A stretch of 64,000 nt of DNA, from the NCBI RefSeq assembly GCF_018619335.1, contig NZ_JAHHDX010000084.1, positions 1-64,000 on the forward strand, given 5' to 3'. The translations under genes were made by a program, and so were the position numbers. This DNA comes from Alteromonas sp. ALT199 (GTDB taxonomy: Bacteria; Pseudomonadota; Gammaproteobacteria; Enterobacterales; Alteromonadaceae). Below, one piece after another: positions 59,818 to 64,000 of this stretch; within the stretch, counting starts at the first letter, position 1; each line of letters starts with the position of its first letter. Under the pieces are notes generated by a model. It searched no databases and had not been told where the DNA came from. It worked only from the letters and a program-made list of their open reading frames with translations.

Positions 59818-60297
59818 ATGCGAGTATCAACACTTTTAGGTATTGCCACTTTCTTGGTATTTCCCCCCATTGCTGAAGCTAAGGGGGCTGCAAATGGCGC
59901 TGCTCATCATTGGGAAACGTCACCCCATCATTTATCGGCACTAATAGGTACCACTTACACAAAAGAGTGTGGCAACGCATTCACATTGGGCATCGATTAT
60001 GAGTATCGGCTTAGCGACTTTTTAGGCGTGGGGTTTGTTGCAGAATACGCTTTTGAAGACTTAGACGCTTATACTTATTTGCTAGTTGCCGACCTTCATA
60101 TTACAAATAACTTTATTGCACAGATAGGCCCTGGCGTTGAGTTTCACGGTAGCCATAAAATGGAAGTGGCAAGGTTGGGCTTTCTATACGAATTTGAAAT
60201 GTCGGGCATTACCGTGTCGCCGCAGCTTCATTACGACTATCATCGAAACCACAAAAGCGCGGTTGTTGCGGGGCTTGCGATTGGTATGTCGTTTTGA
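59818..60297 (+). CDS. Small outer-membrane beta-barrel-like protein
   Basis: The 159-residue product has a signal peptide (ending ...IAEAKGA). The mature part alternates polar and aromatic residues in strand-length runs (FTLGIDYEYRLSDFLGVGFVAEYAF, YLLVADLHI, FIAQIGPGVEF) and ends in Phe (GLAIGMSF), as is usual for outer-membrane barrels. It is rich in His and acidic residues. Its function is unknown. It is the last gene of ordinary backbone composition before the accessory region. Confidence 0.72.
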   Translation: MRVSTLLGIATFLVFPPIAEAKGAANGAAHHWETSPHHLSALIGTTYTKECGNAFTLGIDYEYRLSDFLGVGFVAEYAFEDLDAYTYLLVADLHITNNFIAQIGPGVEFHGSHKMEVARLGFLYEFEMSGITVSPQLHYDYHRNHKSAVVAGLAIGMSF

Positions 60298-60521
60298 TGT
60301 TCAGGAACAATAAAGTTAGTACACTAATTAAAGCCTTAGTGTAAAACTGTCATACTTTTTGCCATCAACTCTAAACCATTCATTATTAATATTTCGTGAA
60401 ACCTATAGGTATTTGAGTAAACAGGATGCTTGTGACTCTCTAGAAATCAAGTTGCTTTTGATGCATATGTATCCCCCACAACTACCGCAAAAGCCCGTAG
60501 ACATCTAACGCAGGCTATCGA
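60298..60521. other. Non-coding junction before the accessory region
   Basis: No open frame with protein-like text is seen. A perfect 7-bp inverted repeat ACACTAA...TTAGTGT lies at 60321-60342. The rest is AT-rich and may hold the left boundary of the cassette that follows. No attachment-site tRNA was found. Confidence 0.35.
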
Positions 60522-60910
60522 CTATATCCATTCATCCTCGAGCCAAGCAACTCCATCATTAGTTACTCTTCCCCTCAAAAAATCAATACGAAACCTCTGT
60601 TGTGTCGTGCCGGAAAAAACTTCGCCAGATTCAAAGCGATCAAACAAAGCACGAATTATTCGTGCATACCTCCCATTTATGCTAACGTGCTTATCTAAAA
60701 AGGGAGTAAGAAAGTCAAGTTCCGCAAAAGAGTAACTACAGCTTATTTTTGAATGTCTGAAGTAGGAAAGATGTCTTCTCAATACCTCGGGTTTAACTTC
60801 AAGTACTTCTTATGGGAAACTATTTCCGTAACTGCCGCCGAAGCAAATTCACTCAAATACAATTCCGCCATTCCATCTAAACGGAGCTTCACTTCTTCCC
60901 AATTAAACAT
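60522..60910 (-). pseudogene. Frameshifted orphan gene next to the methyltransferase
   Basis: Two minus-strand frames join naturally. The first, from ATG 60910, encodes MFNWEEVKLRLDGMAELYL on to ...TEIVSHK and reaches a TGA at 60779-60781. The second, open from about 60816 to TAG 60522, encodes EVLEVKPEVLRRHLSYFRHS to ...GVAWLEDEWI. A -1 step near 60820 would give one protein of about 130 residues. No family is recognised. The reading is divergent from the DNA methyltransferase. It is either a broken gene, a programmed frameshift or an assembly error. A TTG at 60952 could extend the N-terminus by 14 residues. Confidence 0.55.
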
Positions 60911-61021
60911 AATGTCATTTTGTCCATATCCTTGACGTCCATAAAACTTCAACCATTAGAAAATAGCTTTTTATACATATCTAAGTAAAATATGCTCCCG
61001 CATTAGTTTTGAGTATTTTGG

Positions 61022-62200
61022 ATGACAGTTAAAGCAATAGATTTATTCGCTGGTGCGGGTGGCTTCACTTGTGCGGCGCATGATGCAGGAGTTGAAGTTA
61101 TTGCTGCAATTGAGTTTGATCAAGCTGCATCAATAACTTATCACAAAAACTTTATTGAACGCGAAAATCGCAAAATTGATTTGAGATCGGGTCCTTTCGA
61201 TGGCGATATTAATAATGTCGACCCAAAAAAGCTCCGTGTTAATCTAAGACTAAAGCAGAAAGAATTAGATTTGATTCTAGGTGGACCGCCATGTCAGGGA
61301 TTTTCTACTCACCGCATTAAGGACACTGGAGTAAATGATCCTCGAAATACCCTCCTCTTAAGGTATTTCGAATTTGTCAATGAGTTCAAACCAAAAGCCT
61401 TTCTAGTTGAGAATGTCGCTGGGCTACTTTGGACGCGTCATAAAGAATTCTTGAAGCAGTTTCTTACACTAACTCAAGAAGCAGGCTATGCAATCAAATT
61501 CTGCGATATAATAAATGCCAAAGATTATGGGGTTCCGCAGAATCGTAAACGAGTGTTTATCTTCGGCCTTAGAAACGACCTAGACAGTAAGGATATTGAA
61601 TTTCCTCCACAACCTACACATTTTTCACCTACCTCAAGTAAAAAACCTCACTGGGAAACTGCCTCAAGTGTTTTTGAAAAAGTGCCAACTGAGCTATACG
61701 AAAAGTATTGGCTGCACTATTTCAAAAATAAATCAAAACTCAATAAAAAGCAGACTTTCGAGCTATTAGATTCGCTTAGCTACGGAGAGCCATTCAAAGA
61801 AAATGACCAGTGCGATATAAAAATGGAACCCACCTCAATGATGAAAGAACGACTTTCTGATACTCCGCTGAACGGAAGTAGAGAGGATGCAGGAGAGAAA
61901 CATAGGCTAAAATGTCACTCTAATGGATACAAAGGCCACAAAGATGTTTATGGTCGCATATTAATTCATTTGCCCAGCAATACGGTTACTACTGGCTGCA
62001 ATAATCCTTCTAAGGGCCGTTTTGTTCATCCGTGGCTCAACCATGGTATTACGCTTAGACATGCAGCGAGATTGCAATCTTTTCCTGACGAGTTTAATTT
62101 TTATGGAAGTTCAACCGAGAAAGCGCGGCAAATTGGTAATGCAGTGCCACCATTACTCGGCAAAGTATTGATAAGTGATATATGTAGTAGATTGAACTAA
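61022..62200 (+). CDS. C5-cytosine DNA methyltransferase
   Basis: The 392-residue Dcm-type enzyme has motif I IDLFAGAGGFTCAAHDAG (7-23), catalytic motif IV GGPPCQGFS (Cys91), motif VI VENVAGL (130-134), motif VIII PQNRKRVFIFG, a variable target-recognition region (about 225-330), motif IX LRHAARLQSFPDEF and motif X GNAVPPLLGK. All motifs are in the usual order and appear intact. It should methylate a specific DNA sequence that cannot be read from here. It is followed after 49 bases by a GHKL ATPase on the same strand, and a broken gene lies on its other side. Base composition is lower in GC than the backbone, suggesting transfer. Confidence 0.95.
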   Translation: MTVKAIDLFAGAGGFTCAAHDAGVEVIAAIEFDQAASITYHKNFIERENRKIDLRSGPFDGDINNVDPKKLRVNLRLKQKELDLILGGPPCQGFSTHRIKDTGVNDPRNTLLLRYFEFVNEFKPKAFLVENVAGLLWTRHKEFLKQFLTLTQEAGYAIKFCDIINAKDYGVPQNRKRVFIFGLRNDLDSKDIEFPPQPTHFSPTSSKKPHWETASSVFEKVPTELYEKYWLHYFKNKSKLNKKQTFELLDSLSYGEPFKENDQCDIKMEPTSMMKERLSDTPLNGSREDAGEKHRLKCHSNGYKGHKDVYGRILIHLPSNTVTTGCNNPSKGRFVHPWLNHGITLRHAARLQSFPDEFNFYGSSTEKARQIGNAVPPLLGKVLISDICSRLN

Positions 62201-62249
62201 ATAAAGTGCATACAATGTTAAGCACTTATTTAATAAATAACTATCTGAC

Positions 62250-64000
62250 ATGACTGAAAAAATAACAAAGAGATCTGTTTCGTTTAAGGCTCAAGCGCGA
62301 ACGATAGACCATCTTGGTAAGGGGCAAATCGCGGATGCTCCAACGGCTGTCAGTGAGCTTTGGAAAAATTCATACGACGCTTATGCGCGGAACGTAGCAT
62401 TGCATTTATTCGATGGCGATAACAAATGCGGATCAATAATTGATAATGGCTGCGGCATGACATATGACCAGCTTATAAATAGTTGGCTTACAGTTGGTAC
62501 TGCTTCAAAAACTAAGAAAAAGTTACTTCCAGAAGAAGATAGATTTGGTCTTGATGACAGGTATACACAGGGTGAAAAAGGCATTGGTAGATTATCTACA
62601 GCTTTTCTCGCGCCAGTAACCCTGATCGTAACAAAAAAAATGAACACTAAATTTTCGGCTGTTCTGATTGATTGGCGTTTATTTGAAAATACTTATCTAG
62701 GCCTGAATGATATTAAAGTGCCTATGGAAGAGTTTGATAGCTTGAAACAATTGCCAGAAATATGCTCTGGCTTACAAAAAGAAATGCTTTCGAATCTTGC
62801 TTTAGAGCCTAAAACAGAGGACGAAAAGCTTTTGCGTCGAATGTGGGAGCTATTCACTGTAGATGAAAAAGAAGCGTTCGAACTTCGCCACAATCCAACC
62901 AATAATGACACCTTCGTCTCGACAGAAGATAAGGTTGAGGAACTATGCAATAATTTTATTTTTAATCCTAACTTCACTGATAGCTGGCAACCATTATTAG
63001 AAAAAGTTGAAGTACTAGATGGTTCGCAACATGGTACGGCATTGTACCTGTTAGATCTTGGAAGAGATTTAGAACTGCTAACTAATCGTGGAGATATGAG
63101 TAGAGACTCATCTGAATATCAAGAGGTTAAAAAAGACCTAGTAGACACTCTTCGAGCATTCGTTGATCCATTTAGCCGCAACCATCAAACTAAGAATGAA
63201 TTTTTATATGAAATCAAAGGGTTTGATTCGGATGGCTATTTATTAGGTGAACAAAACGAGATCCTTAATTATCAAGAAGTCTTCGGTTATGAAGAGTTTA
63301 AAGAGCTTGAGCATAAGGTTGAAGGAATAGTTGATGAAAAAGGTTGGTTCCGTGGAAGCATTACAGCTTTTGGAAAAGATTATTCAGATGTCGTTATTCC
63401 GTGCCGTTCTCCTGGTATGGAAGCTTTTACAAAGTCTGGACCCTTTGCTCTTAAGATTGGTACGTTTGAGATAGAGTTGTCTAAATCAACACATGAACCA
63501 GAGCATCACGCATTATTAAAAGAGCAAGCAGAAAAGTATGCAGGCTTTATGATTTTTCGCGATGGTCTTCGAGTTTTACCTTATGGACGGGCTAATAACG
63601 ACTTTTTCGAAATTGAAGAGCGACGAGGTAAAAACGCAGGTCGGTACCATTGGGCTACGCGTAGAATGTTTGGTCAAATCAAATTAGACCAAAAGGAAAA
63701 CAAGAGACTAGTAGATAAAGCTGGCCGAGAAGGGTTTGTTAAAAATCAAGCAGCAAGAGAGCTCAAAGCCTTAATGACTAATCTCTTGGTCCAATTAGCT
63801 GACAGTTATTTTGGTACTAAATCTGATGAACGAAAATCACTTTTAGAGCAATTATCTAAGGATAAAAAAAGGCAAAATAGAGCTCGTAGTTCGTCAGCTA
63901 GAATCAATAAACAAGTATTTGTTCAAGCATTGGAAACCAATCTTCCGAAACTTAATATCCAAGTTGAAAATGCTCGTAACGTTCATAAAGAGCTTGAAAA
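62250..64000 (+). CDS. MORC-like GHKL ATPase (partial, runs off the window)
   Basis: From ATG 62250 the frame is open for 583 codons to the window end with no stop. N-terminal GHKL/Hsp90-type ATPase motifs are clear: N-box SELWKNSYDAYA (E36, N40, D43), G1 IIDNGCGMT (65-71) and G2 GEKGIGRLS (108-116). A second domain follows (about 260-480), with MIFRDGLRVLPYGR near its end. The last 60 residues are charged helices of likely coiled coil. This fits the bacterial MORC/MutL-like ATPases described in restriction-modification systems. It is 49 bases after the methyltransferase, so they are probably one operon. Confidence 0.85.
   Translation, partial: MTEKITKRSVSFKAQARTIDHLGKGQIADAPTAVSELWKNSYDAYARNVALHLFDGDNKCGSIIDNGCGMTYDQLINSWLTVGTASKTKKKLLPEEDRFGLDDRYTQGEKGIGRLSTAFLAPVTLIVTKKMNTKFSAVLIDWRLFENTYLGLNDIKVPMEEFDSLKQLPEICSGLQKEMLSNLALEPKTEDEKLLRRMWELFTVDEKEAFELRHNPTNNDTFVSTEDKVEELCNNFIFNPNFTDSWQPLLEKVEVLDGSQHGTALYLLDLGRDLELLTNRGDMSRDSSEYQEVKKDLVDTLRAFVDPFSRNHQTKNEFLYEIKGFDSDGYLLGEQNEILNYQEVFGYEEFKELEHKVEGIVDEKGWFRGSITAFGKDYSDVVIPCRSPGMEAFTKSGPFALKIGTFEIELSKSTHEPEHHALLKEQAEKYAGFMIFRDGLRVLPYGRANNDFFEIEERRGKNAGRYHWATRRMFGQIKLDQKENKRLVDKAGREGFVKNQAARELKALMTNLLVQLADSYFGTKSDERKSLLEQLSKDKKRQNRARSSSARINKQVFVQALETNLPKLNIQVENARNVHKELE

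Follow-up and report, generated by a model that had tools for sequence, protein, structure and literature searches.

A mobile methyltransferase, MORC-like/histidine-kinase ATPase, and receiver gene module in Alteromonas sp. ALT199 and its proposed role in genetic conflict

Analysis of a 64,000-base stretch of the Alteromonas sp. ALT199 genome (the window, bases 1 to 64000 of the 198,009-base contig NZ_JAHHDX010000084.1) and of the same contig beyond its right edge (positions past 64000 in window numbering) revealed a mobile three-gene module. Its open reading frames (ORFs) encode a C5-cytosine DNA methyltransferase, a large ATPase with a MORC-like N-terminal half and a histidine-kinase C-terminal half, and a receiver protein. 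The kinase half and the receiver partner lie beyond the window edge, and a phosphorelay-gated, methylation-linked conflict system is therefore the best reading of the module. The initial annotation, made from the window, had proposed that the ATPase clamps unmethylated DNA and recruits a nuclease encoded beyond base 64000. The sequence there instead encoded the kinase half and a Response_reg_2 gene; no nuclease was recognized in the insert, and none was common, by BLASTP clustering, to the best 80 related loci. The features are as follows.

60296..64000 inside the window, extending to 67561; no strand; insertion (empty-site alignment, G+C content)
61022..62200; plus strand; C5-cytosine DNA methyltransferase, 392 amino acids, all main motifs present (Pfam PF00145, NCBIfam)
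62250..64000 in the window, ending at 65267; plus strand; MORC-like/histidine-kinase hybrid ATPase, 1005 amino acids (ORF, AlphaFold model, fold matches)
62292..63833; plus strand; N-terminal MORC/Hsp90-like module of the ATPase, residues 15 to 528
62343..62687; plus strand; HATPase_c_3 domain of the ATPase, residues 32 to 146 (Pfam PF13589, E = 6.1e-14)
63825..64000; plus strand; first part of the ATPase's long helical connector (coiled-coil-like), residues 526 to about 813 (DSSP of the model)
65268-65576 and 65657-67171, wholly outside the window; directly after the ATPase; Response_reg_2 gene in two pieces (Pfam, ORFs)
60522-60782; minus strand; ORF of 86 amino acids inside the insert, no Pfam match

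Domain composition of the module

The methyltransferase had been described as intact, and it was found as one full ORF matching Pfam DNA_methylase (PF00145, E = 1.3e-66) and NCBIfam dcm (TIGR00675; 188.2 bits, cutoff of 100.65), with the motifs DLFAGAGG, PPCQG, ENV, QNRKR, and QIGNAV. The ATPase follows 49 bases behind, as also noted from the window, with its start at 62250 and its frame still open at 64000.

The ATPase had been credited with all GHKL motifs; the N-box, DNGCGM, and GEKGIG were indeed present in its translation, and HATPase_c_3 scored 53.9 bits (cutoff of 25). Beyond the window, the protein contained a HEF_HK-like stretch (residues 789 to 846) and a HATPase_c domain (residues 895 to 999; E = 7.9e-15; 55.7 bits, cutoff of 26.4). 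The HEF_HK stretch scored 23.0 bits, just below the Pfam cutoff of 24.1; the 89% identical protein P0121 is annotated with PF19191. Structure was read from the AlphaFold model of P0121, in which the best match to the N-terminal fold was Morc3 and residues 15 to 528 aligned to the Morc3 and SMCHD1 ATPase modules. An S5 part of the N-terminal module is predicted from this alignment. The label "MORC-like" holds for the part visible in the window; beyond its edge, the C-terminal half is a histidine kinase. The coiled coil was present, though it is not the tail it had been taken for; it lies in the middle of the protein, and the kinase half continues to residue 1005.

Matches of the ATPase to restriction- and defense-related families were partial. 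The NCBIfam BbrUII/HgiDII family (NF050001) matched residues 17 to 212 with 64.2 bits, far under its cutoff of 550, and the match ended after the ATPase domain. PADLOC REase_II matched residues 16 to 141 (E = 5e-13), and the helical middle weakly matched PADLOC JetC2 (E = 3.5e-4) and LmuB (E = 0.042). No full-length system model for the ATPase or the receiver was found in PADLOC-DB 2.0.0, and no PADLOC families were found in four receiver relatives or in the two pieces of the ALT199 receiver.

Residue conservation was assessed in the best 80 of 140 ATPase relatives obtained from a contig scan. The residues of the clamp ATP site (E36, N40, D65, and K110) were conserved in all 80 loci. In the kinase half, H799 was conserved in 80/80, followed at position 800 by E (75 loci) or D (5 loci), with H799 and E800 in the ALT199 protein; the N and G boxes (N904/N908, G937, and G959/961/963) were also conserved in 80/80. 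The receiver protein consists of a receiver domain, whose aspartate (D124 in P0242) was conserved in 80/80, and a C-terminal domain with a conserved N, G, C-x4-C, and R-x-G, in which no nuclease motif was recognized.

A nuclease or other known fold was sought for this C-terminal domain. Nothing reliable was found in Pfam to an E value of 5 (at which filters drop most weak matches), among PDB sequences, or with Foldseek against PDB and viral models; VIA-align rows spanned the receiver part only. A known fold or a nuclease activity of this domain is nevertheless conceivable. Pfam recognized no DNA-binding domain in the receiver protein. Matches to the C-terminal domain were found in 9 of 398 genomes at an E value of ≤0.01, 7 of them at ≤2.8e-4. 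An occurrence of the domain outside the module was considered and rejected on the basis of four of the seven: the ALT199 genome itself, two genomes whose surroundings proved to be methylase-ATPase-receiver sets (G087 and G235), and one with Response_reg_2 on the same contig (G052); the seven also include G221, G430, and G338. Of the two weaker matches (L053 and L054), the one inspected, L053, lay within a frame that by eye resembled MetE.

Two receivers (L139 and L140) were very divergent (21.6 and 32.8 bits to the family profile) and yet stood in full methylase-ATPase-receiver sets; the family is therefore deeper than its close relatives show. In a congener, a Response_reg_2 match at the cutoff (L010; G002:C15:129363-129665) fell in an open frame of 1169 amino acids, longer than the aligned receivers.

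In ALT199, the receiver gene is interrupted. Residues 1 to 96 of a relative's receiver matched one frame and residues 85 to 635 another, and the eight closest relatives (P0242 to P0249) were single uninterrupted proteins of 634 to 635 amino acids. Response_reg_2 scored 28.8 bits for the larger second piece (cutoff of 27), 12.8 bits for the first, and 63.8 bits when the genome was read through the stop, with one TAG inside that match. Because the gene is frameshifted, the ALT199 copy is probably silent or decaying and may be dead, unless the assembly is wrong. We consider it fairly probable that this copy is a relic, broken by a real frameshift, which is compatible with any function proposed for the module; against this, the assembly is in 178 contigs and was judged without reads, and the methylase and ATPase frames are fully open. 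Uninterrupted environmental relatives of the module exist, for example in Pseudoalteromonas sp. Bsw20308 (L005) and Shewanella saliphila (L060).

Insertion and occurrence in related genomes

The module lies in an insertion of 7266 bp. Four congener loci (L014, L042, L012, and L043) matched the ALT199 sequence through 60295 and resumed at 67562, with a 3-base overlap. The DNA had been described as more AT-rich than the backbone, in agreement with a G+C content of 38.1% for the insert versus 44.9% for window positions 1 to 60000. The right-hand flank gene was present in all 35 genus genomes in which it was sought, and loci were kept for 30, including ALT199. Among the 29 congener loci compared (L012 to L040), the flanks abut in four (L012, L014, L015, and L017); in L013 both flanks were present about 1 kb apart, and the other 24 contained no left-flank match and were hence uninformative. 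Response_reg_2 was found in 5 of 60 related genomes. Within the genus, 4 of 36 genomes had it, ALT199 counted, one of which (G002) was right at the cutoff. Given its exact insertion as a unit and its patchy occurrence, the three-gene module is therefore mobile cargo.

No integrase or terminal repeats were seen in the insert, and a search for terminal inverted repeats gave none that were convincing. Carriage by phages was considered and rejected: 2 weak matches were found among 50,697 records, and the one inspected had no annotation. Upstream of the methylase, about 57 bases (60847-60905) were 84 to 89% identical to the DNA of 7 plasmid records from Vibrio, Enterobacter, and Shewanella; six of these records have a gene for an SprT-family metalloprotease at the matching site, perhaps present in the insert as a gene remnant. 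Just past the receiver gene, a frame (L002:6674-7066, corresponding to 67173-67565) resembled, by eye only, a short transposase-type helix-turn-helix remnant.

The receiver gene followed the ATPase directly in 80/80 loci (gap of ≤3 bases; median overlap of 14 with the longest starts used), and a C5 methylase was present in 78/80, the two exceptions (L077 and L120) being cut by contig ends. Where the methylase shared the strand, it was upstream in 55 loci and downstream in 13; on the opposite strand, it was downstream in 9 and upstream in 1. Neighboring genes were clustered by BLASTP at an E value of 1e-6, by which distant members may be missed, and the Vsr-type, HNH_2-type, and phage-integrase clusters were each named by Pfam on one member. 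Within 1.5 kb, Vsr-type genes were the outstanding family (32/80), followed by HNH_2-type (6/80) and phage-integrase genes (4, with 7 anywhere in the loci) and by two unnamed families in 3 loci each. By these clusters, no nuclease family was common to the 80 loci: 48 had no Vsr-cluster gene, and 74 had no HNH_2-cluster gene.

Divergence of the partners was compared by pairwise identities in the 78 loci with all three genes. The ATPase and receiver diverged together (rho = 0.887), with lower values for ATPase and methylase (0.344) and receiver and methylase (0.32); shuffling gave maxima of 0.13 to 0.21. With the ALT199 module added, 11 of the 118 pairs with ATPases at least 60% identical had methylases less than 45% identical; in all 11 the methylase differed in position or strand, and about four loci account for these pairs (L068 or L069, L102, L111, and L112). 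The kinase and receiver thus form the core of the module, with the methylase exchanged at times, a claim kept modest because the correlations converge above 60% ATPase identity (0.61 versus 0.48). Such exchange speaks against direct reading of a single fixed motif by the clamp and slightly favors sensing of a general DNA state or of methylase absence.

Two lineages were found among 5426 complete Escherichia coli genomes, with presence of the ATPase, the receiver, and the multigene stretches counted at coverage of at least 80%. In the first, the methylase was found in 205 genomes, the ATPase in 206, and the receiver in 207, and the three-gene stretch was covered in 205, a few of them interrupted. 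An inspected three-gene example adjoined genes for a MobH relaxase and ArdC. In two E. coli loci (L137 and L143), the gene next to the three-gene module carried the annotation of a phosphorothioated-DNA-binding restriction endonuclease; L137 also had ArdC and MobH relaxase genes there; these neighbors are defense genes carried as cargo of a mobile element. Broken genes were counted from feature names among the matches listed (60 of 205 for the methylase, 60 of 207 for the ATPase, and 60 of 231 for the receiver, these last 60 comprising 53 full-length matches and 7 short remnants). A restriction system would be expected to lose its effector genes while keeping the methylase; the ATPase and receiver genes were not broken significantly more often than the methylase in these matches (ATPase, 5/60; receiver, 3/53; methylase, 2/60; Fisher test, P = 0.44 and 0.66); one listed ATPase match that holds 21% of the gene was not scored as broken.

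The second lineage was nearly uniform, and its ATPase-receiver stretch was covered in 560 of the 5426 genomes. The four loci inspected (L135, L138, L141, and L142) encoded a 572-amino-acid ATPase without the MORC half and a receiver, with no methylase; the receiver was itself truncated in the first of them, and an IS3 element lay upstream in three. All four stood beside a gene with an integrase domain, with ssrA adjacent in L138 and L142.

Proposed working and competing explanations

From the gene set, domain composition, and conserved residues, we infer a working of the module in five steps. First, the methylase would mark host DNA at one cytosine motif. The ATPase would dimerize via its N-terminal MORC-like GHKL module and close on DNA, with the clamp acting as the sensor of the kinase and unmarked or otherwise foreign DNA as the signal. 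Clamp closure would then be relayed along the coiled coil to the C-terminal kinase domain, which would autophosphorylate H799, and the phosphoryl group would be handed on to the aspartate of the neighboring receiver. Finally, phosphorylation would free the C-terminal domain of the receiver, which would harm the invader or arrest the cell. That a mobile HEF_HK/Response_reg_2 module works by these steps as a defense is given a little less than an even chance. More tentatively still, the module may represent methylation-guarded phosphorelay immunity, in which a MORC-type clamp has become the sensing part of a soluble histidine kinase and contact with unmarked DNA yields a phosphoryl signal that sets free an effector domain of a new kind on the receiver. 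To our knowledge, two-component phosphotransfer has not been established as triggering DNA-based immunity; should the proposal be true, the family would join MORC-like ATPases and two-component phosphotransfer.

A regulatory two-component system is unlikely. Here, the MORC half would respond to DNA state or to nucleotide level, and the receiver would regulate genes, perhaps that of the methylase, while neither DNA nor the cell is attacked. Bellieny-Rabelo et al. (2021; PMC8011034) came near this interpretation: they put forward a two-component regulatory role in the Discussion and had been led to the genes by their activation on potato tubers. The kinase and receiver residues intact across loci are in keeping with regulation, but the receiver protein has no recognized DNA-binding domain, and patchy mobile spread (5/60 relatives) and insertion as a unit look more like defense or addiction cargo than housekeeping regulation.

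An addiction module appears rather improbable. Loss of the methylase would leave host sites unmarked, the clamp would fire on host DNA, and the receiver would kill the cell, which would secure retention of the element. The methylase accompanies the pair in 78 of the 80 loci, the other two being cut by contig ends, and the methylase-less E. coli form also has no MORC half in the four loci inspected, as expected if a lone sensor were harmful. The second lineage fits an intolerance of an intact clamp without its methylase, yet its near uniformity and the IS3 element upstream in three of the four loci resemble one event; in the three-gene lineage, moreover, the ATPase was found in one genome more than the methylase.

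Classical restriction, with the clamp recruiting a nuclease encoded elsewhere or adjacent, is very unlikely: the N-terminal half resembles restriction-enzyme families (BbrUII/HgiDII and REase_II), and Vsr-type genes lie near 32 of the 80 loci, but Vsr is a mismatch-repair nuclease and not a restriction enzyme, and no nuclease was recognized in the ALT199 insert or, by the BLASTP clusters, as common to the loci.

Comparison with known systems

The proposed phosphorelay defense was compared with systems that share parts of its architecture. BbrUII/HgiDII shares the N-terminal GHKL homology, and its namesakes have C5 methylases (M.HgiDII and M.BbrUII, in the available part of PMC5867850); it differs in that the ALT199 score is far under the family cutoff and the similarity does not extend past the ATPase domain. 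A cognate nuclease gene, as in a type II restriction-modification system, was not recognized among the ORFs of the insert with Pfam. Identity with VcSduA, a paraMORC3-Shedu protein of Vibrio cholerae, was rejected on its different architecture. Both have an N-terminal GHKL ATPase, and VcSduA was shown to be antiphage (PMC12137116). VcSduA consists of one protein that carries a PD-(D/E)xK nuclease at its C terminus, and its description, in the passages available, includes no kinase half, receiver, or methylase.

MORC and paraMORC were defined by Iyer et al. (2008; PMC2292703, available in part). As in the members found in restriction operons, the ALT199 ATPase has an N-terminal GHKL domain followed by an S5-like module, and methylase and Vsr genes occur as neighbors. 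In contrast to them, it has a second, kinase-type GHKL domain, and no helicase or nuclease partner was recognized. The MORC-specific S5 motif GhXhhpXXRhl was found exactly in none of 81 proteins (ALT199 and the 80 loci), and a variant one residue longer was found in 38/81, including ALT199. Of the paraMORC traits, GHKL ATP motifs were present in 80/80 and a C5 methylase, as restriction-type context, in 78/80, with S5 predicted from the fold alignment.

Judged by its sequences, the module is of the HEF_HK (PF19191)/Response_reg_2 (PF19192) kind described by Bellieny-Rabelo et al., with which it shares HATPase_c_3 and HATPase_c in one protein, with the HEF_HK-like stretch just under the Pfam cutoff between them, an adjacent Response_reg_2 gene, and an upstream C5 methylase. 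In the available text of that study, the three-domain layout ("group 1") was found in 174 of 222 HEF_HK proteins; where one genome had its receiver gene in pieces, this was ascribed to minor misassembly or gene-prediction error. The ALT199 module differs in its frameshifted receiver gene. No functional work on the module, including phosphotransfer between the two proteins, was found in the literature searched, outside which most subscription papers and all bioRxiv preprints fall. The phosphorelay-gated, methylation-linked reading was thus partly published in 2021 (PMC8011034); new relative to that paper are the MORC3-like fold of the N-terminal half, the conserved C-terminal domain of the receiver, the codivergence of the partners, and the exact empty site.
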